DNA of 64,000 nucleotides from contig NC_087083.1 of NCBI RefSeq assembly GCF_026151205.1, positions 12,400,944 to 12,464,943 of the forward strand. Direction: 5' to 3'. This DNA is from Bolinopsis microptera (Eukaryota > Ctenophora > Tentaculata > Lobata > Bolinopsidae). A program made the translations under genes and the position numbers. Shown here one piece after another: positions 7,901-51,731 of this stretch (positions are counted from its first letter, which is position 1; the number at the start of each line of letters is the position of its first letter). The notes beneath the pieces are model-generated. The model did no database searches. It saw only the letters and a program-made list of their open reading frames with translations, and was not told the origin of the DNA.

Positions 7901-8870
7901 AACTATTTCTTCAATTTCCAAAATAATAAAGTCAAAGATACTGTTTTAAAATACAAGCCTCATTCTTATCAAAGTTTTAATTCTGTCCATTCAATTCTTC
8001 GTACCTGGACTGTATCTTGAGTAGCTCACTTTTCAGTGTTCCTTAAACTAAGTTCGTTGACTTAGTAAAGCTTAATATCGAAACTGTCATTTTCGACAGT
8101 CGTTCCACATTTTTGTTGATTGATAAAATGAAAGAGGAGGATGGGTTCGGGGTGATGAACTGGTCTGAAAGTCTTTGTGATGGTGATCTGTGGAGTAAAG
8201 ATAGGAGTGAGATTGGAGATTCAAATCTGACAATTGGAACATTCTAATAGAATCATTGTAATTTGTACAGGTTGTGGACGGTAAGAGGCCGTTCTTTGGT
8301 AAACAACGGCTTTGTATGCTCTTTTTCAAAAAATTCTCTTCCTCAGGATTTGTACCGTCATACAACGTGTTCTGGCACATGCTCTGAAAAATTTACTAGA
8401 TATGCCTCAAGTCACCAAATAGTATTCTGATACATATTTTTTCTGATGATGAAGATAGTTTTGAAGCATATTATTAACTCTACCCACCCCATACCGAATT
8501 CCAAATCTTAGGAGTGACTCAAATAACGAGTGGTACATTCTTTATGTGTTTTTTTCGGATAACGTGCCCCGTATTCTACTGAGTCTTTTCGATCTCACAC
8601 CCTAAGTCTGAGTTGAGGCTCTTTATTTAACCATCCAATTTTTTAAGCTTTTCTTCCATAATTAACACCTAAAAACTTGCTCTTTAACTTGCTTTATTAC
8701 CGTATTATTTAGAGTTAGTATATATTCTGATCGTTATCTGCCTCATTAACATAGCCTGTACGTGACGGATTGAAAGTGAATGTAGCAGCCATTTCTTATA
8801 TTTATATGTTATATGATTGCATTCATGTACTGGTGTAACAAACGAGAATTCGTTTGCTCCTTCATCAGTT
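4911..8870. other. Long gene-free AT-rich stretch
   Basis: Only short open frames with no recognisable protein families. Poly-A/T-rich tracts are common. No splice-linked exons, TIRs or tandem arrays could be supported. Old degraded repeat DNA is likely but unassigned. Confidence 0.4.
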
Positions 8871-11350
8871 TTTTTTCTACATTCATCTACTACGAATAGT
8901 TTGTGTCATCTGCAAATAGTATGAACTTTCCCAGATCAGTTGTTCTAAATAAGTCGTTAACATATATTATAAATAGCAAGGGTCCTGAGACATAGAGCCT
9001 TTGGGAACACCAAAGATAAACAGGCATCTGTCAGACTCATCGCCCAGTACAGAGACTATTGATATCAATTAGAGAGATAACTAGCGATGAGTCCTATTGC
9101 GTTTCCACGTATTCCATAGTTGTCTATTTATTAAGTAGTTTTTCATGTGAATCTGTCAAACGCTTTTTTTTTTTTTTAAAGGATAGATCAATAAATATTC
9201 CAAGTACATGCAGTTTTTTTGCTAAGAAACAGGTTTTCAAAGTAATTCACTGAGGAGTGAGGGCATGTGCTTGTGGAGTGATTTTTCTAAATCCGTACTG
9301 TTTCTTCGTAAATCATTTTTCCTGGGACTGAAAGAGCTATACAGTCTGTTGTAAATAAGTTTTTTCAAATATCTTACCAATAACAGCTAAAGTTGATACT
9401 GGCCTATTAGTTATTCCAGCAATTCCTCATTATCCTACTATAGATCGGACAGAGTCTCCCAGTCTTTAAATCATCTTCTGGACTACTCCATTCTCATGCA
9501 TTCACTGTAAATAAAGATAGTATATGACAGATCACTTTAGACGATTCTTTAACTACATGTATTGGATGTCGATGACTTTCCCATTTCTTCCAGTTCCAGA
9601 TATAATCAATCTAACCTTCGTCAGCTGTAACAGTCATTAATGAAAATACTGACGTGTTTGCTCTAGGCAGGTAGTCATAAAAACTAGAAGATTGTTATAG
9701 TTAGTTCTCCAATTTCATTATATGCCCGTTTAATTAGAACGCTAGAGAACAAAATACTTATTAAAATTCCATTGCTATTACTCCTACGATTGGTTACTTC
9801 TCATTGTTTTTTATAAGTAAACATGGTTTTATTTGCCGTTTCTGTTGGCCCCTAGTGATTAATCATTCCCCATGTCTTTCTTACAATTACCGTTTGTGTC
9901 TCAAATTTCCATGAAAATACTTAGTTAGAACATCTTTGCGATCTTTTGAACCATCCTTCTATAATCCTTATAAGTTTTGTATCAGAACGTGTGTTCACAA
10001 CATTTCAAGCATTGAACATGTTCCACCTTTATATCATTTTCACCGAGTTTTACATTTTTTCTTTCAAACTTTAGCCCAATTGTCATAGAGTTGGGTGCTG
10101 ATGCTTTGATTTTGGCTCTAAGCCAGGTGTGATCATGGTTATTTTGAGTATTCTTTGGAAAGACTTAGGGGGTTGCCAACTTTACACGTTTTATCGTACT
10201 AATTTGAATACATCATGAAATACCGAGAAGTTGTCAATTACTTTATTCTCTAATTCATGTTCCAAAATTCCTTTACAAAAGAGGTAACATTAGACTTTAC
10301 AAGGTAGACGTAATAAATTGTTTATATTTTAGGTTTTACTCTTAGTGATCCATACTCTTTTCAAATATTTGAAAGACTGGTTAGGTTGGGTGGGAGATAC
10401 GATCAGTAAGTGTGCTGAGGCTAATATACTCCTCTAGCACGTTGTTGTAATATTTCATACAACGATACTTTACAACCTGGCTTCTCATGAGTTTGGCAGA
10501 GATATTAGGGGAAAAAATCCTCATATTGAACAGAATTCCTCATAACGTTTTACAATCGCCATTATCCTTATTATGTAGATCAATGTTGAAATCAACTGCC
10601 AGGTAACAGCATTTCGCAAATTATCGAGAATTGCCGAGATTCTAATAATGCATACATTTTACATCACCACTTGGAGGGCGATACACTACACAACAGTGAC
10701 CGGAGTATTCTTGCTGCTTATCGTAACAAATAAGTTTCTAGGTTTTCAGATATATGGACAAATTGCCATTTACTGTTAGCACTGAGTAATCACATACATA
10801 AGAGCGACTCAGTGCCCTTTTCTTTTATCTTGCAAAGTGTTTTGGTAGGAAACATGTATCCAGTCATTGGTAAAGTCACTTAATTCGGGGCCTTCAATAT
10901 GTTTCTGCTAAAGCAATGATCGAAAATTTTCATAAATCTCTGTAGTTCTATGCCAGAGTATAAAAGTTAGATTATTACCATCGATATTTTGAAATAATAA
11001 TGAGAGTAATCGTTTCATTTTGTTCAAAATGTTTAATTAAATCCTTAACACTATAAGGGTTACAGTTATTTAGTAATCGGTGATGTTTACAAAGTGTTTC
11101 AATCAATGTCAGTACTATTATTTTCAGAGTCAGTATCTCAATAATAAACGGATTGTAACATACGTGCTAAATGTACACAGTTAGGGCAGTAAAATCTCAT
11201 ATATTTGTTTGTACTGGATTTAGTATAGCATTTATGGTGCATAGCACAGTCACACCTACAACATTCAGCAATGAATTGCCATGGAAATGAATTTGTACAG
11301 ACAGGCATACCTCTTTGTCATTTATTCATGGGTAACGTACGTAACCTTCC
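8870..11350 (-). pseudogene. Decayed LINE D, ORF2 (zinc finger, APE endonuclease, reverse transcriptase)
   Basis: Read on the minus strand with many frameshifts. A zinc finger at about 11190-11320 has the pattern C-C...MHHKCY...FYCPNC. The APE-type endonuclease keeps VVYRPPSGDVK (about 10665-10700), DFNIDLHN (about 10565-10600) and a His-containing SDH-like site near 10130. The linker KTWGMINH lies near 9860. RT pieces include RPISTLAVIGKIFEK (about 9365-9410), GVPKGSMSQ (about 8990-9015) and the catalytic FADD at 8905-8916. Domain order matches CR1/L2-type LINEs and the intact LINE A at 44-50 kb. It continues upstream into an ORF1 remnant at 11464-13300. Dead by multiple stops and frameshifts; the exact 3' end is unclear. 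Confidence 0.75.
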
Positions 11351-11463
11351 CCATGTTTGAGTCGCAGCATCAGCAGGAGAGGAACCACCCATCGTCTGGA
11401 GTATAAGCGATTGTCACTTTTATCCGACTCCCTTCTTCCTTCTATCAGTCCCTCCATTCATCC

Positions 11464-12033
11464 TTAAAAGCATTTGTATACGTAATAAAACCCCAGTTTT
11501 TGCTGTACCACTCCCAATTGAGGTGTAAATATCCCGGTCTCTGGTTTCTGTCCAATGTTCCTAGAGAATTGCTGGCTTAGGACCCAGCTCATCATCAGAA
11601 CCATGTCAAAACCAGTATCCAAAGGTACCACACCACTTGTGGAATGGAGCATCTCCTTAAAAATTAATTCATTATAATGTGCAACTTTACGATTTAGCAC
11701 ACGAGTTTGGTTGGCAGCAGCGGACACACCAAATATATTTGCTTTGGGGTTAAGCGCTTTGATCATTTCTATTTCTGAACAAAAGGTTAAAAAACAATTG
11801 TTCTTTAATATCAGCGGTAAATTTTTGATCTCAGGATTCCTGATATCATTTATTCCACACATCAAGATAACATTCCTGTATCCACATGAAACTGTAGGCT
11901 TTATATCCCCCACTACCGATCAAAATACTGTTTTCCGGGAGCACTGCACAAATGGATTTTTTGGGTCCAGCCCGAATTTGAGACCACCAGTATGCGAGTC
12001 TCCGATGATACATGTTAGAGTTTCCTGTTTCTA
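11464..12033 (-). pseudogene. LINE D ORF1, SGNH-hydrolase (esterase) part
   Basis: The frame at 11464-11913 has VILMCGINDIR (block III, Gly and Asn) and a C-terminal TPQLGV segment after LDTG, near where the catalytic Asp/His block should be. The block I motif CIIGDSHTGG is read at 11983-12015 in the same direction after one stop. SGNH/GDSL esterase domains are a known component of CR1/L2-type LINE ORF1 proteins. It lies directly downstream of an AlkB remnant (12050-12700), the same order as in the intact ORF1 at 48297-50105. Confidence 0.75.
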
Positions 12034-12049
12034 AAGGCTAACGAACGAA

Positions 12050-12700
12050 AAGTTAGGCTATCTCACCCCACCCCCACCAGTTTATTGCACCCATCCTCGA
12101 TACAGTGGCTGTAGAACCTCTCGGCTGCGTCGAGTCATGCGATACATGGAATCTAGGCACACATGTATAGGTGCATGAGCCTTATGATCCGCTTCCTTAT
12201 CAAAGAATTTGATGTTGCACTGCCTCCAATAGAAACAGTGAAAATTTCGGATTCAGGGTAGGATGGTAGTTTTCCTCATCCGAGTGTTTCTGGTAGGGAG
12301 CCATCCTCTTTGAAGCGATTGAATCAGCAGGCAAATAGATCTCCGGTTTTCACCACTACAGAATGCACCATTGATTTTGTTCCACTAGTATTGGAGAAGC
12401 TAGTTGAAGCTAGTTGGCCTTTTTTGGCCATTGGATGACTTGGAGCCATTTATACTGATGTCTCCCCAAAGAATACACAGCACGAGCTCCCTCCACAACA
12501 AAAATCCTCGGTCCAAGTGATTGGCTGGCAAGGAGGAGAGTTTCCTGCTCTTCTGTGGTAAATAACTCTTCTATAGCCCTACAACTGGTTCTTCTTTTGA
12601 TTGAAAGCTCATTACTATTAGTGTAACTGGGCCGAGGGGCACAGTGAAGAACTGGTAATTTGACGTTTAAATGGTCAGAAAAGCCAAAAATTTCGCTCAA
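12050..12700 (-). pseudogene. LINE D ORF1, AlkB-type dioxygenase part
   Basis: Recognised across two or three frameshifts on the minus strand. N-terminal part: VVEGARAVYSLGRHQYKW (frame 12410-12700). Then NRFKEDGS followed by KHSDEE, with the HxD iron-binding pair at 12278-12286. Then FTVSIGGSAT and, after a shift, IKFFDKEADHKAH. Next come YRMTRR and ERFYSHCIEDG, which would hold the distal His. SLTFRSL is where the arginines that bind 2-oxoglutarate occur in AlkB proteins. Together these follow the AlkB/ALKBH2-3 motif order (Y...G, N-R/Y-x-D-G-S, HSD, TVSLG, M.RRxQ, H). Function lost by decay. Confidence 0.7.
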
Positions 12701-13300
12701 GAGTGTTTCAAAGACTGTCTAATGCTGTTGAGCTCCTGATTCGTCCTCCAGAGACTGCTTGTATTTAGCTCCTGGGGGGGGAGATTCTTCTCTATTTTTT
12801 CCATGAGATCGTTGGTCTTGGAGGAAGATTGCGCACTTACTTGAGGAGTAGATAAAGTCCTGCAGTTGCTTGTTCAACACTTTAATTCTGTCGGTTAGGC
12901 CACAATCAAGACTCAGAAACCTTTCCGTGTGAAGAGTCAACTGAAGTTTTTCACTGCTTAGATCTCTCCTTCCCAATCGACTTCAACCCATGCTGGAGCA
13001 GTGCCCTTGTCACTTACCAGTAAGTGCATGATATGGAGTCAAGGTTCTGGAATGGCAGCAATGCTGTCGCGTTTAGACTGTCAAAGTCAAAACCCCTTTG
13101 CAAGCTTTTCACCAAAAGCTGTGATGGTATTAACTTCTTTCTCTGTGGCAATAACTTTGTCCTCACACTGTCTGTTAGATTTTTTGAAGTGTCAGATGTT
13201 TCCTACACACACACACACAACTTCAGCAGTTTCGAATGTGGGGATTGGTGAAACCAACCAAAAAGGGCAGAGCCAAATGGTCCATGCTGTTGACATTTTC
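12701..13300 (-). pseudogene. LINE D ORF1, N-terminal part (unrecognised)
   Basis: The minus-strand frame at 12719-12976 is followed upstream by short frames to about 13260. No domain recognised; the sequence is polar with leucines spaced like a weak coiled coil (SLDCGLTDRIKVLNKQLQDF). Assigned to the same element because it is collinear and immediately upstream of the AlkB remnant. The true 5' end is not visible. Confidence 0.45.
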
Positions 13301-13638
13301 TGTTGATCCATTCTTAGTTTAGACATCTATGTGCCAATATTGCTTGCAACTTTACACAGTCTATCATCCATGACGATATTGACTTACTAAACATGACTTT
13401 TCGTCTTGTCCCTGTGTGAACTGACAACTTGGGGTGTTACATCACTAGTCTAACTACAAAGATTCACAAGATACATCCATTCCTTCGCTCTCTGGTCCTG
13501 GAGTGTTGGTCTTGATCGGGACTTTGCCTTTGTGTCCCGCAGGAGTGGTGGTACACCCAGAAAGACTTTCAAGAATGGCCACGTGTACATTGAAAACAAT
13601 AAACTTTATATAATATAACCAAGTCAATAAAGGTGACA

Positions 13639-21541: not shown

Positions 21542-37415
<15,874 letters not shown>

Positions 37416-42028: not shown

Positions 42029-42775
42029 CAGTATAGGGACTACGGGTGGAAGATGAATAATCAAAATTCCAACAGGATCTTGTTCCCTTCATTATATGGA
42101 ATAATATAGTGTATCGCGTGTAATCGGATCCAATAACCTTATCAGACCTTATTTGGACGGACATTAAATGAACGGACATAATTATAAACGGACATTAATA
42201 TGAACGCTAGAAGGCATTCAAAACCATCAAAAATCCGAGTTTCTTTTTCATTTTTTAAACGTTTTTTATTTCAGCAAATGGTTTTTAATTCAAAAGTAAG
42301 AAAATCAGTCGTTTAGCAGTAAAAATGTTAAAATATGTGTACATATGATCAGTGTCTAATATCAAATATCATCGTCATCAAATGGGTCTTCCTGCCGGAA
42401 ATAGGCCGACAAAGGGGGGCCCCCGATTATTAGGGGTCAGATCATATGACGTATAATTAGTGATGTGACGTATAATTAGTGATGTGATCTATCAGTAGAA
42501 TTTAATTGACCCAGAAATGAGCTAGATATAGGGTAGAGTTCACATGTCAATTCTGTAAATCATAGCTGTACATTAAGAAGTAAACATAATCTGACTGCTC
42601 GACTCGTAGATCACATATGGGACGGGAGCTCTTGCGAAAGGGGGTTCTCGTATCAAGGGATGTGAGACGCGTACGTGCCAAAGGCATGCAAGGGGAGTGA
42701 GCCGATCAAGTGTTCTTAGGTATATATACTGGAAGATGAAAGACAATAGTATCGCATTCTTACATTCTATCAACA

Positions 42776-43320
42776 TGCCTACCTTCTCCAAATTCATCTC
42801 TGGTCGGACAGGATCTCAACATGCAACAGCTACTTGACTCTGATGGATACATCTACTGTCGGAAGAAGAACAAGGATTCAGCCCTCACATCTTCCTGGCG
42901 GTGCTGCAAGCACAAACTTCCTACGAAGTGTCCGTGTCTGTGCTATATATCCCTCTCAGATGATTCTCTCAAATTGAAAGCCCTCTGTTCAAGAGTTTGT
43001 GCGAGCTATCAAAGAGCAGCAAGTCATTACTGACTTTCACATCGACAGCTGGTTGAGTGTTTTTTTTATATTTTTTATTTTTATGTTGGGGCACCCACTT
43101 TACCTCCCTATTGGGAGGCTACGTCCGTCATTATTGACTAACGTCTATTGGGGTCCCTCTGCCCTCTGGTGTAGGTGTCAGTAGGTTGAGTGTTGGCAAG
43201 ACACCCGATAAGAGGCGAAGGAATTACCATACCCAACTCCACGATATCTGTTCATTTTACTCCACATACTCTAGCAAGTTCGAGTATTTGTTTTCTGTAG
43301 CCTCAGTGTTTGGGCACGAT
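42776..43320 (+). pseudogene. FLYWCH-like zinc-finger ORF of the TIR element, broken
   Basis: From an ATG at 42776 (MPTFSKFISGRTGSQH), one frameshift leads into LLDSDGYIYCRKKNKD..TSSWRC and CKHKLPTKCPCLC (42821-43033). The order (aromatic-GY-Y, basic loop, W-R-C, C-P-C) resembles FLYWCH zinc fingers found at the N-terminus of many Mutator-like transposases. A second shift leads to VITDFHIDSWLS. The frame is then split by a 132-bp insertion (43062-43193), resumes as VGKTPDKRRRNYHTQ and ends near 43320. No DDE catalytic domain is present. Confidence 0.5.
43062..43193 (-). mobile_element. Short retroposed insertion (SINE-like), 132 bp
   Basis: Flanked by a perfect 11-bp direct repeat GGTTGAGTGTT (43051-43061 and 43194-43204). 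It starts with a T-rich tract (A-rich tail on the minus strand), as in target-primed reverse transcription. The body has a CCTCCCTATTGGGAGG hairpin. Removing it restores an open frame in the surrounding ORF. The source RNA is not recognised. Confidence 0.65.
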
Positions 43321-43337
43321 ATGTAGTAAATTATAAT

Positions 43338-43794
43338 TTATGTATTCAGTATTCAGTATTCAGTATTCAGTATTCAGTATTCAGTATTCAGTATTCAGTA
43401 TTCAGTATTCAGTATTCAGTATTCAGTATTCAGTATTCAGTATTCAGTATTCAGTATTCAGTATTCAGTATTCAGTATTCAGTATTCAGTATTCAGTATT
43501 CAGTATTCAGTATTCAGTATTCAGTATTCAGTATTCAGTATTCAGTATACAGTATTCAGTATTCAGTATTCAGTATTCAGTATTCAGTATTCAGTATTCA
43601 GTATTCAGTATTCAGTATTCAGTATTCAGTATTCAGTATTCAGTATTCAGTATTCAGTATTCAGTATTCAGTATTCAGTATTCAGTATTCAGTATTCAGT
43701 ATTCAGTATTCAGTATTCAGTATTCAGTATTCAGTATTCAGTATTCAGTATTCAGTATTCAGTATTCAGTATTCAGTATTTAGTATTCAGTAAA
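43338..43794. repeat. (TATTCAG)n 7-bp microsatellite
   Basis: About 65 nearly perfect copies of a 7-bp unit with two or three single-base variants (for example at 43548). All frames read the same short peptide repeat, so it is not coding. Confidence 0.98.
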
Positions 43795-44294
43795 TTTGAT
43801 TAATTATTCTACGAAAAAATGTCTATTGACTTGTTAATTTAAATCAAAAGTACGGAGTTAAACTGGGCTAGAAATCAGGTAGAGTTCACATGTTCTGTAA
43901 ATCATAGCTGGTGGATCACATCACTAATTAAACGTCACATCACTAATTATACGTAAATTTGTTTTTTGTTTTGAAACCCCACGGTGGAGGTTGGCGTGTG
44001 CCGCAATTTATTGATCAATGGTTATTACATAAATGAAATTATAGAAGTCACACTAAAATATAATAATGTAAAATAAATATATTAAAATAAATGCCCTACT
44101 AAAAGTACTATATAACTAACGGTCTGCAAAACTGGTTGAAGTCGCAATTTGTAAACATGCTAATTACTATTTAATAATAATAGATAAAAAGTTTTGCGCG
44201 GCAGATGTAAATTCGGCATTGCATAATGGCAGTGAAATTAAAATGATATGTTGTTGATAAAAGATCATAGTCATTTGTCGCGAGTGATCTTTCT

Positions 44295-47200
44295 TTACTC
44301 GTTGTCGCTTACTAACTCGGTGCTGTAGTCTATTTGCGAGCGCCCTTCTCTTTGAGACTTTCTTAGCCCAGGTATACTATAAAGTAAGAAATTTGGCCAA
44401 TTTTCATCGTCTCCTGAGCTTTGCAGCTTGAGGAGTTCGCGCTTAGCTGAATTTTTAAAGATTTCAATTGAAAAGGTAGAACTTGGAATAGTTATATCCT
44501 TACTTTGTTTTGTAATAGAGAGCATGGGTCCTTTGAAGAAAAGAGTATTTCTAAATGTTGGGCCGTTGTAAGTTGTGAACCAAGAAAGGTTATGTTCGTA
44601 TGTGGAATTATAGGTGGGAATATCGTGAGGGAAAAGTTCTTTGATGGATTTAGGGAGAAGGCTTGGCATGTTCCTTACTTTGTGTAGTAGAATAAGAGCG
44701 TTTTTTACAATGACGCTATGGACTGTTAGGATATTATGCAATCTAAACGCACTTTTTGTGTGCTCCGGGGGATTGCCGTCTTTATATCTATAATTTACAT
44801 ATCCTGACATAACAGCTCTAATTCCCTGCTTTTGCTTGGTGAACAGAGATTCAATGTGACATTTTGAGGCAAATCCCCACACTAAAGAACAGAAATTTAG
44901 ATGGGATTGGATAAGGCTTTGGAAAATGTTTAGGCGGGCTTTGATAGGTAGAAGGTGCTTTAGCTTATACATAACTCCGAGGTAGCGACCCATCTTTATT
45001 CTAACGGCCGTAATGTGTTTTTGCCAAGTGAGCTTTTCGTCTAGGATTACTCCTAAAAATCTTGCTTCAGTCTTACGTTCGATTACAGTGTTGTCAATGG
45101 ACAAATTAAAGCCGCTGAAGTCGATTCTTTTTCTAGTGAAAATCATGTAACACGTCTTTTTTACATTTAAAGATAGCCCATTAACACCTACCCAATCTAC
45201 AAGACGTGAAATTAGCTGATCAGCTTTTAATTGTATTTCTTCTAGGGTGGTTCCACTAATTAATATGTTTGCGTCGTCGGCATAAAGGATGAACTTTGCA
45301 AAATCACTAATTCCAGGTAGGTCGTTTATATAAATTACAAATAAGAGAGGTCCTAAAATGCTACCCTGAGGTACGCCGTAAACTATGGGCATGCTAGAAG
45401 AGCAAGTTCCGTTTAAAGTTACGTATTGAGATCGATTACAAAGGTAAGATCTAAACCATTCGTGCGCGACTCCCCTGATCCCATAATGGTCAAGCTTCTT
45501 AAGCAAGGTCTCATGGTCAAGCACGTCAAAGGCTTTACTGTAATCGAGCAGGAGCAGTAGGGAAATTTGTTTCTTATTCAGAGAGTGTAGTATAGAATTT
45601 TGGGCATTGAGCAGTGCATGTTCGCACGATCTTCCTGGCCGAAATCCGTATTGATTTTCGAAAAGAGAATCGTTCTTATCTAAAAATTCTAAAACACGAG
45701 CATGCATAAGTTTCTCATAAATTTTCGAGAATGATCCCAAAAGAGAGATCGGCCTATAATTAGCTACTTCCAATTTTGAACCACCTTTGTGGATAGGAAC
45801 GACTTTCGCAGTTTTTAGAGCATTTGGGAAGGTACCACTGGAGAACGAACAGTTAATGACATTAGCTAGTGCCCTGGTAAAGTTTTCGCAGCTGTTTGCA
45901 ATTTTCAACGGCTCAATTTTACAATCGAGTGTGGACTTGTTCTTAAGCCCTGATATTATCTTTTGGACTTCACCGTGTGATGTAGGCTTAAGAAACATCG
46001 AGTTACTACACGAAGCCTTAAGAAAATGCTTGAAACCACCTGGGTCAAAGGTTCGACGGGCAGCGATTTGCCTCTTGATACTGGCTGCAATACCGGAGAA
46101 GTAGCCGTTAAATTTCTCAGCGACTGCCAGATCGGAGCTTATAATCGTGCCATCGTCGTCCTTCAGACGGGTGTGTCCGAACTTTTTTCTGTTACGGTTC
46201 AGGAGGCCATTGATAATTTTCCATTGACTTTTAGAGCAGTTTTGGTATTTGTCAAACATTTTTTTATAGTACTTTTCTTTGGCTAGATTCACATGTTTGT
46301 GACAAAACTTTTTCATTTTATCATACGCGTCGCAGTTTTTTTGTGATGGATTTATAGTTTTTTCAAAAAAAAGTAACTTCTTGCGGTTGCATGCCGCCTC
46401 AAGCCAGGGTAAGATCCAAGGCTTTGGGTCAGCTCTTTCGAATTTTCTTCTCGAACTGTCGCGCTTCAGGGGGTATGCAGTATTGTAGTGTTTCATGTAC
46501 GTTTGATAGATGGAATTGTATTGTTCATCAGCGCACGTTGAGGAGGTAGCATCATCCCAGGTCTCACTTACAATAAGCTCTTTGAATTTAGCATGATTAG
46601 CTTCGTTAAATACACGGGCCTCTAATTTCAAGCTAGTGTTGTTGTTCTTTACACGTTGACTACGGAATCGCTCGTTCAAACTAGGTGTGGCTCCTAAACT
46701 AATGGTCGTGCTAACCGCGAGATGATCTGACATATCCAACGTCACGACATTACAACTAATAACGTTGGTCACGTGATTAGTATACACGTGATCAATAAGC
46801 GTTGCACTGTGGTCAGTTACCCTGGTAGGCTTGGAGACAGTCTGGGCAAACCCATATTTTTCTAGTAAGCTTATAAGATCCTGGCTGTAAGCGTCGGTAT
46901 CGTATTTTATAAGATCAATATTTGCATCACCCAGGAAGACTATCTGCTTTCTGGAGTGTCTATCAAGACCCCTGAGCACGTTTTCAAACTTTTCAAGGAA
47001 TTTTTTAGGGCTTGTGGATGGCGAGCGGTAGAAATTTACGATGATTTTTGTCTTATTTCCGTTTTTAAAATTGTTGATTTTAAGCAATTGAAATTCTCCG
47101 CAAGTAACTTCTTCTGGACTCAGATTGAGTTCGAGTTCCTGTATTTTATCGTAATCACAAACGCGTTTGTTAACATAGAGCGCAAGACCACCTCCTTTTC

Positions 47201-47777
47201 CAGATTTACGTGCAGGTTCTTTGATAAAGGGCTCGTAAAACTGTTCTATTTCAATGTCGTTCAGACCATTAGGAAGATTAGAAATTTTACAGTTGGTTTC
47301 ATTGAGGCAGATGAGGTCAAATTTGGAGAATGTTTCTATTTCTTCTCTAAAATTTGAGATATTCTTCACGAGTGATCTAACGTTTAACGAAAGTATCTTA
47401 AATTCGCGATTGCTAGGGGTCTTGATATTATCAGGGTGTTGGTACTTACAGCTAACCAATATCTCCGATATACAATTGTTGAGATCGATTTCGCTGGAAT
47501 CTATTTCATCAGTAAGTTCGCCTATTTGATTCAGTACGTGAGAACGAATATAGGGGTTAAAAGTGGGGGTTATTGTATTGTAATTATCATTAAGTTCGTA
47601 GGAAGTTACTCTATAGCCAGGTATTAGGTTTAGACAGCATGTAATACAACCAAGATAATCTTTGAGGCATTTTTTATGAACTGGTTTGTCACATACAGGA
47701 CAAATGAAAACATTTCTAGGAGCATAAGACCACCCGAAGCAACTTGAGCATTGTGATTTGAAACTAGGTTCAACCAT
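44295..47777 (-). CDS. LINE A ORF2: zinc finger, APE endonuclease, reverse transcriptase
   Basis: 1160 residues, uninterrupted. Residues 10-48 form a RING/PHD-like cysteine finger (CSSC, CPVC, HKKC, CITCC). The APE-type endonuclease has LNVRSL (131-136), LNE (Glu160), GGGLALYV, NFYRSPSTSP, GDANID (283-288) and SDH (350-352), all intact. RT: KVVPIHKGG, NYRPISLLGSFSKIYEKL, QYGFRPGRSCEHAL, LDYSKAFDVLDHE (motif A), VPQGSILGPLLF and YADD at 832-835, then the thumb and a CR1/L2-type C-terminal region (RFLGVILDEKLTWQKHI). It nicks target DNA and copies element RNA there. Start: ATG at 47777, just ahead of the finger. The finger at the ORF2 start is also found in LINE D. Confidence 0.93.
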   Translation of the reverse strand: MVEPSFKSQCSSCFGWSYAPRNVFICPVCDKPVHKKCLKDYLGCITCCLNLIPGYRVTSYELNDNYNTITPTFNPYIRSHVLNQIGELTDEIDSSEIDLNNCISEILVSCKYQHPDNIKTPSNREFKILSLNVRSLVKNISNFREEIETFSKFDLICLNETNCKISNLPNGLNDIEIEQFYEPFIKEPARKSGKGGGLALYVNKRVCDYDKIQELELNLSPEEVTCGEFQLLKINNFKNGNKTKIIVNFYRSPSTSPKKFLEKFENVLRGLDRHSRKQIVFLGDANIDLIKYDTDAYSQDLISLLEKYGFAQTVSKPTRVTDHSATLIDHVYTNHVTNVISCNVVTLDMSDHLAVSTTISLGATPSLNERFRSQRVKNNNTSLKLEARVFNEANHAKFKELIVSETWDDATSSTCADEQYNSIYQTYMKHYNTAYPLKRDSSRRKFERADPKPWILPWLEAACNRKKLLFFEKTINPSQKNCDAYDKMKKFCHKHVNLAKEKYYKKMFDKYQNCSKSQWKIINGLLNRNRKKFGHTRLKDDDGTIISSDLAVAEKFNGYFSGIAASIKRQIAARRTFDPGGFKHFLKASCSNSMFLKPTSHGEVQKIISGLKNKSTLDCKIEPLKIANSCENFTRALANVINCSFSSGTFPNALKTAKVVPIHKGGSKLEVANYRPISLLGSFSKIYEKLMHARVLEFLDKNDSLFENQYGFRPGRSCEHALLNAQNSILHSLNKKQISLLLLLDYSKAFDVLDHETLLKKLDHYGIRGVAHEWFRSYLCNRSQYVTLNGTCSSSMPIVYGVPQGSILGPLLFVIYINDLPGISDFAKFILYADDANILISGTTLEEIQLKADQLISRLVDWVGVNGLSLNVKKTCYMIFTRKRIDFSGFNLSIDNTVIERKTEARFLGVILDEKLTWQKHITAVRIKMGRYLGVMYKLKHLLPIKARLNIFQSLIQSHLNFCSLVWGFASKCHIESLFTKQKQGIRAVMSGYVNYRYKDGNPPEHTKSAFRLHNILTVHSVIVKNALILLHKVRNMPSLLPKSIKELFPHDIPTYNSTYEHNLSWFTTYNGPTFRNTLFFKGPMLSITKQSKDITIPSSTFSIEIFKNSAKRELLKLQSSGDDENWPNFLLYSIPGLRKSQREGRSQIDYSTELVSDNE

Positions 47778-48296
47778 TGTTCAAGATGTGTAAATACCAG
47801 ATATCTGTGAATAATTAAGTAAGATATTAAATAGATAAGAGTGTATAGTATGGTGTATAGAATAGCTTGTACAGTCTAAGAATATGTATAAAATGCTAAT
47901 GTGTGTGCGTGTGAATGAATGAGGAGTAAACTGTGTGCTGAGAAAGCGTAAAGAAGAAAAAGAAAACTTGTTAGACGGTCTACCTATCAAGAACTATACA
48001 GCTCTGTGTGTAGATAGAATCGTAACGTAGTCTACAATATTACAATATTACGATAGCGGTACTGATTTCAGAACTATTCTAAAGTGTTTAAAAAACTCGG
48101 GCAAGAATTCTAGTAACTTACGATAAGCTGATAAGAGCACGGGCATGACTATATATTTTTATGCGAGGGTTTTCATTATAACCATAAGATGTAAGCTATA
48201 ATCCCTTAAAGATTTTGTAAAAATTTTGTGAAAATTTTGGCGCGGCAAGTATAAGTAGTAGGCTGGGGTACGGCTTTGTGAGTTTGTATTTAACCG

Positions 48297-50105
48297 TTAG
48301 TTACCAGGCAAGAGCGAGACAAACTCCCGCCTTAATGGCCAGTGCTTTCGAACTTTCTCGCTTCGCATAGAGAGTTTTTGAACACCGGTCACCAGACAGT
48401 TAGCTATCTCACTCTTGGGCAGCTGAGTAATGTGAATCCCATTTCCAGATCTATCTAAAATCTCAAACCCTTTGTTAAATATCACACTACAAATATGGTG
48501 GGAGTCGAAAAACCAAAAGTTACGATTTTCGATCAGACTAAAGTCAAACATGCAGCGGTTAAACAAATCAACCTCCTTATTTAACCATGCAAATCTCGTT
48601 CTAAGAAGGGAGTTGAAAACAAACACTGTTTTTGGGTATCTAGCAAACAAGAAGTTAAAATTGTCCCTAATTTCACGGGAAAGTGTATAGCTTCTATGGT
48701 CATATCTCGACAAATCATTAATACCGGAAGATATAATCACATAATCGCAGTTTTCAAAAAAATGTTCAAACTTCATTAAGTCCGTGAGTTGGTACATGTC
48801 ACGCTTTATGACACGAAAGTTAGAGGGGAAAGATGATGGGGTGTTACGTATCATAGAGTCAGTAAGGTATAGGACAGTCTGTTTGGAGGGTCTCAGGGGG
48901 TCGGATGGTGCTATTGACGGTTCATGGATTTTAGGAATGTGCGTGCGCATGGGCTTGTCTATGCGTCTAAAGGTCACTGACACACGACACGAGGTGACGC
49001 CAGGTTCGGGGTGTATCGCATGCTCCCAGAAAAACTGAGACTCTGTGGTCATTGCGTACACTGTGCCATTCCTTAGTTCGTGTTCACGTCGCTCATCAGT
49101 GACTATGTTACGGAAAGTTAAGGTGCGAGTGGCCCCAAAGCTGGCAGTGATGATTTCACCCGTTAAGCCTGTTTCATTATCAGAGTGAAACGGGATAGAG
49201 TCTGAGCCTGTCTGGTATCTAGTGACCATGCAAGTAACGTTATCCCTATTGAAGGTGGGATCGTCTAGTTCGTCAGCTATACAGTCTAGTATCTTATTTA
49301 CAGCGTGATCAGATGGTGGGTAGGCCTTAGCGCGATGGGTAATACTGCCGTAACTGTATTTACTGGAGCCGAAGTAAGAGACGTCACGTGATCCTATGCG
49401 TTGAAAGTCCAGTCCATCACAAACATTATGCGTTTCAAACTCAAACTTTGATCGCAAACTTCTTACCGGAGTAGCTTCTAGTACTTCCTCGTGTCCGGCT
49501 GGCGAACCTGTGACGAAGGTTGAGGGATCCGAAGTAGTGTTGGGAGTAGAGTTCCTAGCGACGAGAGAACTAGAGCTCCTTATCACCTCCTTGTATTCGT
49601 CAAGCGTCTGTTCGGCTTTTTCCAGCAGCATGCAAAAATCGGAGGTTAGATTACCGTGTATAGTCTGCTTATCAGTTGGATTTCTGATAAGATGATCATA
49701 GTATCTAGAGTCTAGATTTAGCTTTGCTGTCATGTATGGTTTTCGTAGCGTTTTGTTTGTAGATTTACAGAGTCCGGCACTTAAAGATTCACGATAAAGT
49801 TGGTCCGGTGTAAGTGACGGCAGTAGCTCGAGGCAAGTTTCTGGCGTAAAAGTAGGTACCCAAAAACCAACAAACTCTGTCTGCGTACTGTGATTTTCGA
49901 CGTTTATCTTACCTTCAGCTTGAGGGTTTGCCGAGCAGTGTTTTTGATCTGCGGCAGTGGTGGGGGCACCACTGCCCAGCAACCCCTTTTCAGATGTGTC
50001 GCTCTGCGTCGTGGTACTCGAACTAGAGGTAGGGCTGTGGGACTCCAGAGGACTCGAGGGGATCAAGCTTAGGTTAGTAGGACTCGAACTAGGCTCAGAA
50101 GACAT
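48297..50105 (-). CDS. LINE A ORF1: AlkB-type dioxygenase fused to SGNH hydrolase
   Basis: 602 residues, uninterrupted. Residues 1-75 are Ser/Thr-rich. AlkB-type Fe(II)/2-oxoglutarate domain (about 225-382): YFGSSKYSYGSITH, TRYQTGSDSIPFHSD with His307 and Asp309, ASFGATRTLTFR, His362 in WEHAIHP, and Arg374/Arg380 in CRVSVTFRR. These are the full metal and co-substrate set, as in ALKBH2/3-like repair enzymes. SGNH domain (about 408-580): TDS with Ser417, GIND (461-464), and Asp551/His558 in DRSGNGIHI. SGNH esterases are known in CR1/L2 ORF1; an added AlkB is unusual. The AlkB part might remove methyl lesions from element RNA or cDNA; this is inference. LINE D carries the same order. Confidence 0.9.
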   Translation of the reverse strand: MSSEPSSSPTNLSLIPSSPLESHSPTSSSSTTTQSDTSEKGLLGSGAPTTAADQKHCSANPQAEGKINVENHSTQTEFVGFWVPTFTPETCLELLPSLTPDQLYRESLSAGLCKSTNKTLRKPYMTAKLNLDSRYYDHLIRNPTDKQTIHGNLTSDFCMLLEKAEQTLDEYKEVIRSSSSLVARNSTPNTTSDPSTFVTGSPAGHEEVLEATPVRSLRSKFEFETHNVCDGLDFQRIGSRDVSYFGSSKYSYGSITHRAKAYPPSDHAVNKILDCIADELDDPTFNRDNVTCMVTRYQTGSDSIPFHSDNETGLTGEIITASFGATRTLTFRNIVTDERREHELRNGTVYAMTTESQFFWEHAIHPEPGVTSCRVSVTFRRIDKPMRTHIPKIHEPSIAPSDPLRPSKQTVLYLTDSMIRNTPSSFPSNFRVIKRDMYQLTDLMKFEHFFENCDYVIISSGINDLSRYDHRSYTLSREIRDNFNFLFARYPKTVFVFNSLLRTRFAWLNKEVDLFNRCMFDFSLIENRNFWFFDSHHICSVIFNKGFEILDRSGNGIHITQLPKSEIANCLVTGVQKLSMRSEKVRKHWPLRREFVSLLPGN

Positions 50106-50220
50106 GGTATAGAGGGTGTAAAAGTAGGTGTAGGATGTAAACTGGTTAACAAGACGTGGCTAAAAGGCAGGTCAGGCCGCGCGTTATCAGCTTATCAGAT
50201 TACTATCAGCAGCAACAAAA

Positions 50221-51731
50221 CATTTAGTGAATATTGAAAGTAAAGATGCCAATAAAGAAGAGTCGGTACTTGACCTCTTCGATATAGAGAACTTTTATAA
50301 ATTCTTTAAAGATCTGTACAAGACCAAAACAGTACCTAAAGAATTGGTGAAACTGAATGATGAAAGTGAAATCATCATCGACACTGAAATCCTTAACAGA
50401 GATATCGACCAGGATGAAATGAAGAAAGGCATCAAATGCTTACAAAATGGAAAGGCAGCGGGTATCGACTTAATTCTTAATGAGTTCCTCAAAACATCGA
50501 CGGACGAAGTTGTGAAACTCATCCAAAAACTCTTTAATGAATGTCTTAAGTTTGGCGTATACCCTTGGAATACCACTATCGTTACCCCTCTCCACAAAAA
50601 AGGATGTCCACATGCTCTCAGCTTGTTTTGACGTTAATGCAGGAACGGAACAGGGCCACCCCTTGAGCCCAGAACTCTTCAAATGCTATATCTACGAACT
50701 CTCCCTCCAGATTAACGCCCTACCCGGAGTGGAAAGTCCCCAACTCAACAACCGACAGATTACTCACCTGCTTTGGGCGGACGATCTGGTCCTGCTAGCC
50801 CTTAACAAGGTCAGTCTTCAGCTAATGATTGACCAACTCCAATCATTTTGCACTAACTGGGGATTGACTGTTAACATTAAGAAAACTGCGGTCATCATCT
50901 TCAATCCCTCAGGAAGGCAGTTACTCGAGAGTAAAACATTTACCTACGGCAGAAGTATTGTAATCCCTTCGGTCAAAAGCTACTGCTACCTAGGTACTCA
51001 TTTCACAATATGTGGCAGTATGAAGCTTAACCAAGAGCAGCTCAGGATCAAAGGACTTCGAGCATACTTCTCCCTGAAAAAGACGGTTGATCTCTCCTCA
51101 ATTTCTAAAGAGGCTGTGTTCAAACTCTTCGATGCCCTTATACTTCCTGTCGTCTCATACGGTAGTCAGGTGTGGCTCCCCCATACCAACATTCTCAGCA
51201 ACATCTGCCAGAAGATAACACAGTCCAACAAAGACACACTCAGTCAATTAGCGAATGACAGCATCGAGCGCCTGCATCTCTCGCTGCTAAAATGGACGAC
51301 TGGGGTCAACAAGAGAACTTCAAATATCCCGATATGGGGAGACACAGGAAGATATCCCCTTGGAATACAACTGAGTAAGCTCTTTCTTGACTTCCACAAC
51401 AGGCTCGTCCTCCTTGACAGAAAAAACTCACCACAGATTGTTCGCCATGCTTTTGTAGAGCAAAGAAACCTACAGCTGACCTGGTTCCGAACATCGAGAG
51501 CGCTGACCGCCGACCGACGCATTTGACCCAGGAGCAATTAAACGAACAATTGTCTCGAAGAATGTTCCCATGCCGAACAGCCAACTCGTTCGGAGTAGAA
51601 TGAGAAATTGGTTCCAAGAAAAGTGGGAAAAAGCTCGACTTGAAAACAAAAAGCTTGCATTCTACAACGAAGTCAAAAGCAGCTTTGGATTAGAACCATA
51701 CCTATCTCTACCCAATCACAAGAAAACCCGA
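50221..51731 (+). pseudogene. LINE B (non-LTR) reverse transcriptase, 5' part, truncated and deleted
   Basis: Begins mid-protein next to the LINE A 5' end. The frame 50227-50631 covers the RT N-terminus (GIKCLQNGKAAGIDLILNEFL, WNTTIVTPLHKKGC). An internal deletion at about 50605 then joins directly to DVNAGTEQGHPLSPELFK (motif B) in another frame, so the fingers and motif A (first catalytic Asp) are missing. WADDLVLLALN (catalytic ADD), VNIKKTAVIIFNPSG and the thumb follow to 51526. One more shift leads to NWFQEKWEKARLENKKLAFY and the break at 51731. Endonuclease missing. Inactive. Confidence 0.85.

Follow-up and report, generated by a model that had tools for sequence, protein, structure and literature searches.

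A multi-copy LINE whose ORF1 joins an AlkB-type dioxygenase domain to an SGNH hydrolase-fold domain

Introduction

LINE ORF1 proteins bind element RNA and are among the least understood parts of LINEs. In the type IV (esterase) ORF1 of CR1/L2 LINEs such as zebrafish ZfL2-1, an SGNH domain stands upstream of an ORF2 with an APE-type endonuclease and reverse transcriptase (RT), and membrane targeting has been proposed for the SGNH/esterase domain (PMC3905857). AlkB domains have been described in other genetic elements: the orchid Ty3/Gypsy element Gypsy_Pa_2799, an LTR retrotransposon described as recent, bears a separate ALKBH5-like ORF whose protein binds RNA and removes m6A, and plant RNA viruses of the Alphaflexiviridae, Betaflexiviridae and Closteroviridae have AlkB domains (both PMC9289625). 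An AlkB in a LINE was not named in the titles and abstract openings that our literature search listed; most subscription journals and Repbase lay outside this search and a prior mention is possible. The words 'AlkB' and 'oxygenase' were not found in the text of a survey of CR1/L2/Jockey ORF1 proteins (PMC4120745).

Here we describe an intact, multi-copy LINE in a 64-kb stretch of Bolinopsis microptera DNA (the whole stretch analysed, hereafter the window), the ORF1 of which joins an AlkB domain with a conserved active site and under purifying selection to a domain of the SGNH fold.

Organization of the element

The whole element spans 43963..50239 (~6.28 kb) on the minus strand, as do all of its features given below, and its ends are where other genomic copies cease matching the window. 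By blastn, the 5' end was placed at 50216-50239 (loci L002-L007 and L012 against the window) and the 3' end at 43962-43964 (L069-L072 against the window). The 3' terminus at 43963..43990 is an A-rich tail (CAAAACAAAA...) common to the five copies compared, the window's among them. ORF1 (P0001, 602 aa; 48297..50105) is composed, in order, of a disordered N-terminus, a long helix, the AlkB domain and the SGNH-fold domain. The helix, predicted at residues 118-182 (49560..49754) in an AlphaFold model with modest pLDDT, is a possible coiled coil; a heptad test gave this no support, 200 of 2000 shuffles being equally good. After a 519-bp spacer (47778..48296) follows ORF2 (P0002, 1160 aa; 44295..47777) in the same direction, with Pfam matches to Exo_endo_phos, Exo_endo_phos_2 and RVT_1, so that the APE-type endonuclease and the RT required for LINE membership are both present. 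Its closest solved RT relatives are LINE-1 ORF2p chains (top 8c8j_A, E 1.5e-17). The N-terminus of ORF2 carries a Cys/His cluster (C-x2-C-x12-C-x2-C-x4-H-x2-C-x6-C-x2-C; 47637..47750) with PHD-like spacing by eye and a weak Pfam match only (Prok-RING_1, E 0.46). Dispersed copies, common 3' ends and frequent 5' truncation, by which LINEs are recognized, were found as well. A reading of this frame from sequence alone had called it a LINE ORF1, and with the endonuclease-RT ORF2 downstream and multiple genomic copies this is right. The ORF1 architecture points to the CR1/L2 (Jockey superfamily) clade.

No clear target-site duplication was seen when both flanks of five copies were read by eye. In the 5' flanks of eight copies (L002-L007, L012 and the window element), also by eye, four (L002, L004, L005 and L007) have two or three tandem units just 5' of the element, each combining copy-specific bases with AATATTCAC(TAAA), and the flanks of L003 and L012 have tandem units without the AATATTCAC(TAAA) motif. 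The flanking tandem units look as if the 5' junction had been copied repeatedly.

Directly beside the element's 5' end lies, by eye, an RT-like plus-strand fragment of another LINE (50240-51526). Beyond its 3' end, an array of a 7-bp unit, 451 bp long, is flanked by 19-bp tandem units at 42447-42487 and 43916-43954 that form an inverted pair, and 42447-43954 is perhaps a terminal-inverted-repeat element whose end the AlkB LINE abuts. Farther off, a 996-aa minus-strand frame (28697-31687) contains an RT domain, matches zf-RVT weakly and belongs to a different kind of LINE, and a satellite-like array at 24940-25669 comprises 33 copies of a 22-bp unit with 93% matches. There was no tRNA or Rfam match within the 64-kb window.

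The AlkB domain of ORF1

By profile, sequence and fold, ORF1 residues 213-382 (48960..49469) are an AlkB-type Fe(II)/2-oxoglutarate (2OG) dioxygenase domain of ALKBH2/3-like type. PF13532 matched ORF1 with 62.3 bits, exceeding the curated cut-off of 31.2, which places the region in the family where the sequence-only reading had put it. Two profiles, A1 (the query with 16 of 18 related proteins, P0011 and P0021 being left out) and A2 (30 chosen rows of the sister clade described below), matched ALKBH2 at E 5e-20 and 1e-22. ALKBH2 and ALKBH3 are the closest solved relatives, and the region shows the double-stranded beta-helix fold with an equally good fold match to both. The HxDxE motif is retained as HSDNE (residues 307-311; 49173..49187), which corresponds in the alignment to HSDDE in ALKBH3 and HRDDE in ALKBH2; it provides two metal ligands and a Glu common with ALKBH2/3, and its H, D and E are kept in 17/17 rows of the window's clade, as is His362, the third metal ligand (49020..49022). 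The 2OG-binding motif is RVSVTFR (residues 374-380; 48966..48986), in which Ser replaces the Asn of cellular AlkBs. As a set, the HxD...H triad and the two RxxxxxR 2OG arginines are kept in all 17 rows of the window's clade and in 110 of 115 of the sister clade, so the residues picked out from sequence alone (His307, Asp309, His362, Arg374 and Arg380) were chosen correctly.

The Asn of RxNxTxR is usually taken to define the AlkB family, and the motif is carried by ALKBH2/3 and by L075-L077, three cellular AlkBs found in this genome. It is absent from the window's clade, where the position is Ser in 17/17 rows; the sister clade has Ser in 112/115, and RxSxTxR was found in all 111 motif-matched mobile AlkBs among 141 proteins, the underlying protein searches having scored only the candidates with the most words in common. 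Ser in place of Asn may change the AlkB chemistry. A 43-row AlkB tree separates the 40 mobile rows from the three cellular ones with support 100/99; as it includes three cellular rows and drew long-branch warnings, this tree does not prove a single capture.

The SGNH-fold domain of ORF1

ORF1 residues 408-580 (48366..48884) have the SGNH/GDSL hydrolase fold, with Ser417 (48855-48857), GIN at residues 461-463 (48717-48725) and NGIH at residues 555-558 (48432-48443). In the window's clade the nucleophile Ser and the block-III Asn are kept in 17/17 rows and the catalytic His in 16/17. At the aspartate position of DxxH, however, Asn555 stands in 15/17 rows, Asp551 is Asp in just 8/17, and no conserved block-II Gly was found at residues 432-445 in these 17 rows. 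The sister clade retains both residues (block-II Gly428 in 113/115, catalytic Asp570 in 107/115). The full SGNH set claimed earlier therefore stands for Ser, block-III Asn and His but not for the catalytic Asp and the block-II Gly, and the term intact SGNH hydrolase does not suit the window's clade. With the canonical Asp and the block-II Gly missing, the domain in this clade could work as a Ser-His dyad enzyme or persist as a lipid-binding relic. The sister-clade profile matched an 'ORF1-encoded protein' chain, 4c1b_A, which we take to be the ZfL2-1 esterase, at E 0.004. The ZfL2-1 esterase was not among the best 50 Foldseek and VIA matches, which is no evidence of absence.

Copies in the genome, sister clade and relatives

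Copies were searched in the 264.65-Mb assembly (232 contigs, window included) with only the best candidates scored, and all genome copy counts are accordingly lower bounds. The ORF1 search scored 73 matches from 888 candidates; 18 of them, at scattered places, are at least 94% identical, and seven (L001-L007, the window's included) are full-length and stop-free at 98-100% identity, which suggests recent movement of the window family. Further intact ORF1 frames occur at about 46, 39, 36, 34 and 31% identity. With ORF2, 42 matches were obtained. Sixteen are full-length at 99-100%; of these, 14 are stop-free and two have one stop. ORF1 sequence lies upstream in 12 of these 16; among the 12, L023 and L026 keep the SGNH end only, and in L014 AlkB is incomplete, the loss being at the 5' side in all three. 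In the remaining four (L061-L064) the matching to the window stops at 48389, 48283, 47871 and 48291, respectively, that is, by 5' truncation within the same element, and no alternative ORF1 was found at any of the 16. Copies lacking the AlkB domain, which according to the sequence-only reading would speak against the fusion, thus did not turn up in the window family other than by 5' truncation. Of 11 copies in ORF2 families at 63-64%, four were opened and contained AlkB and SGNH (L067 and L068), an SGNH scrap (L065) or nothing (L066); for three more copies an ORF1 match lies at most 2 kb upstream.

A sister clade, typified by P0021, has the ORF1 order PHD-AlkB-SGNH with an N-terminal PHD-like finger. 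The order is the same by homology, as hhalign of A2 against A1 gave probability 100 and E 2.3e-44 over 317 columns spanning AlkB and SGNH. The protein search with P0021 listed 120 of 161 matches (P0021 counted within the 120), of which the 115 of at least 400 aa were aligned. In the genome, P0021 gave at least 80 matches, many of them lying in open frames 640-711 aa long, and PF13532 gave at least 151, cellular genes included; those listed were all above the cut-off and nearly all without stops. The AlkB-SGNH architecture was also found in database relatives, for example a Mnemiopsis gene model to which an endonuclease domain is attached. The best match to this Mnemiopsis protein among 48 ORF1s extracted from the genome studied here is 57% identical. 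No confirmed relative was found in viral contigs or prokaryote genome contigs. The AlkB-SGNH fusion is not a one-off and belongs to a large ORF1 family.

The window itself holds a decayed second LINE of the sister type (8671..13351, minus strand), with an SGNH remnant at 11632-12015 and an RT remnant at 8671-9405. With tblastn, P0021 matched the SGNH at E 2e-10 and, co-linear with it, an AlkB scrap (E 0.045) and PHD scraps (E 0.46), these weak scraps lying between and upstream of the SGNH and RT remnants, and P0002 matched the RT at E 5e-13. The A1 profile by itself found no AlkB in 8671-13351.

Mobile AlkBs in this genome appear to extend beyond LINEs. One AlkB lies in a 3388-aa open frame. 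A 1.8-kb piece (L073, G000:C10:16875200-16877000) has an AlkB with the Ser-type motif (PF13532, E 1.2e-22), and ~4.2 kb beyond it on the same strand L074 (G000:C10:16879800-16880900) matches Helitron_like_N (PF14214, E 1e-23). The two are in register, their starts (16875201 and 16879800) differing by a multiple of three, with the sequence read at both ends only; they would represent a Helitron-type protein with a Ser-type AlkB upstream in the same frame, reported as one open frame. Five further AlkB matches are in frames of 2225-3366 aa. The 43-row tree places the Helitron AlkB together with LINE rows of the sister clade (support 86/94), and its origin is unsure because its branch is very long.

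Selection on ORF1

The AlkB part was proposed for a dN/dS test from the outset, and the test indicated purifying selection. In sister-clade pairs, AlkB dN/dS was 0.09-0.20 in eight of nine (AlkB dS 0.20-2.01), the ninth being without a computable dS, and SGNH dN/dS in the same pairs was 0.09-0.14; eight of the nine pairs were hand-chosen from 81 at 50-90% identity and one was more distant, and as members overlap the pairs are not independent. Within the window family (10 copies, three partial), pN/pS was 0.23 for AlkB (9 synonymous and 7 non-synonymous changes), 0.29 for SGNH (7 and 8), 1.14 for the N-terminal part (11 and 42) and 0.62 for the whole ORF1 frame. In three other families, pN/pS was 0.15 (12 and 6), 0.52 (1 and 2) and 0.42 (4 and 6) for AlkB; for SGNH it was 0.50 (18 and 35) in the first of these families and 0.17 (6 and 4) in the third, the second giving no computable value (0 and 2). 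On these values AlkB is clearly constrained between subfamilies and within two of the families; the two others (0.42 and 0.52) have few changes and are not decidable. In one ORF1 pair, L035 and L055, AlkB dS is 1.29 and SGNH dS is 0.32, a strong contrast and a sign of domain exchange between subfamilies.

Proposed role of the AlkB domain

m1A hinders the R2 RT on which OTTR relies, and AlkB treatment removes m1A and m3C and improves the capture of most 3' tRNA halves; in that work (PMC12140624) the templates were tRNAs in vitro and the effect on intact tRNAs was modest. The simplest model is therefore that the AlkB domain keeps a single-stranded template or cDNA clear of methyl groups on the Watson-Crick face. 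We propose that the ORF1 protein would coat element RNA, and that its AlkB domain would oxidatively strip Watson-Crick-face methyl groups (m1A and m3C) from single-stranded element RNA or nascent cDNA. A methyl-free template would then spare the RT from stalling during target-primed reverse transcription, and the SGNH domain would tether or release the particle at membranes or lipids, in line with the ZfL2-1 esterase proposal. Alkylation damage and modification by the host are both conceivable sources of these methyl groups. This reading, in which AlkB clears m1A/m3C from element RNA or cDNA and SGNH acts at membranes or lipids, is the one we favour, tentatively and at somewhat under an even chance. 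The element-borne demethylase suggested from sequence alone accordingly stands in kind as the best reading, with an activity that is predicted only, and its wording of an intact SGNH hydrolase does not.

The substrate is not singled out, since a dsDNA enzyme (ALKBH2) and an ssDNA/RNA enzyme (ALKBH3) are equal fold matches. A DNA role at integration, by which AlkB would repair or unmask single-stranded cDNA or the target site or remove a host mark such as N6-methyladenine, is plausible if on the unlikely side: the dsDNA-repair enzyme ALKBH2 is among the best sequence and fold matches, and a DNA role gains in plausibility from the Helitron-type ORF of this genome, which bears an AlkB of like kind and belongs to an element moving via DNA. 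Against it, the chains of 6mA demethylases match weakly (E 0.026 with A1, 4.7e-5 with A2). That AlkB is kept as a nucleic-acid-binding or structural module with catalysis lost seems improbable to us. Such a loss could be read from the Asn-to-Ser change throughout the mobile group and from the SGNH domain of the window's clade, already without its canonical catalytic residues, but the five metal and 2OG ligands kept in 110/115 and 17/17 rows go beyond the need of binding alone.

We have more doubt still about an m6A eraser that would counter epitranscriptomic control of transposon RNA by the host. Such a role has been proposed for the ALKBH5-like protein of the orchid Gypsy element, which demethylates m6A RNA in vitro (PMC9289625). 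The match to ALKBH5 is marginal with A2 (E 0.024) and absent up to E 1 with A1, against E 5e-20 and 1e-22 for ALKBH2, and human L1 is helped by m6A while its retrotransposition is suppressed by ALKBH5 (PMC7873242); on both counts m6A erasure is less likely. A host AlkB gene adjoining a LINE, or a chance or assembly fusion, for which no evidence turned up, is rejected with near certainty by the 18 scattered matches of at least 94% identity, seven of them full-length and stop-free, by the ends that the compared copies have in common, and by the same architecture in database relatives.

Beyond the clearing of m1A/m3C from element RNA or cDNA that we favour, a broader view would see an arms race in this animal lineage, in which a distinct Ser-type mobile AlkB subfamily, long kept by LINEs and shared with Helitrons, might serve as counter-defence against Watson-Crick-face methyl groups with which the host marks or damages transposon RNA and ssDNA; we consider it a rather unlikely extension. 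An AlkB eraser in intact, selected ORF1 copies makes it testable whether transposons must clean or unmask their own nucleic acid, and the family is a source of ALKBH2/3-like enzymes with an unusual cofactor motif.

Comparison with described systems

The arrangement resembles the type IV ORF1 of CR1/L2 LINEs such as ZfL2-1 in having SGNH in ORF1 upstream of an APE-type endonuclease-RT ORF2, but here AlkB precedes SGNH, and in the window's clade Asn replaces the catalytic Asp and the block-II Gly is missing. It also recalls the CR1 and L2 elements that bear PHD fingers in ORF1 or ORF2, by the PHD-like finger of the sister-clade ORF1 and the PHD-like Cys/His cluster (by eye) at the start of the window's ORF2, although none of the surveyed ORF1 types in the portion of PMC4120745 covered joins PHD, AlkB and esterase. 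With Gypsy_Pa_2799 it has a retrotransposon-encoded AlkB in common, which in the orchid is a separate ALKBH5-like ORF of a plant LTR element and here an ALKBH2/3-like part of a LINE ORF1 in animals. Plant viral AlkBs likewise sit on RNA-based genetic elements, and polyproteins of this kind are among our Foldseek matches in the viral library; the viral domains belong, unlike ours, to the replicase polyprotein of non-retroelements. Compared with the repair dioxygenases ALKBH2 and ALKBH3, the fold, the metal and 2OG ligands and HxDxE are alike, and the Ser for Asn in RxNxTxR, the encoding by a mobile element and the fusion to SGNH are different. With this element, a group of animal retrotransposons would join the few elements that carry nucleic-acid-modifying enzymes. 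Symbiodinium and Klebsormidium have LINE, DIRS and Gypsy elements that bear a DNMT, which similarly reflect recurrent capture of such an enzyme by retrotransposons, under purifying selection (PMC5890265), with the difference that DNMT elements write methyl marks and AlkB is an eraser.
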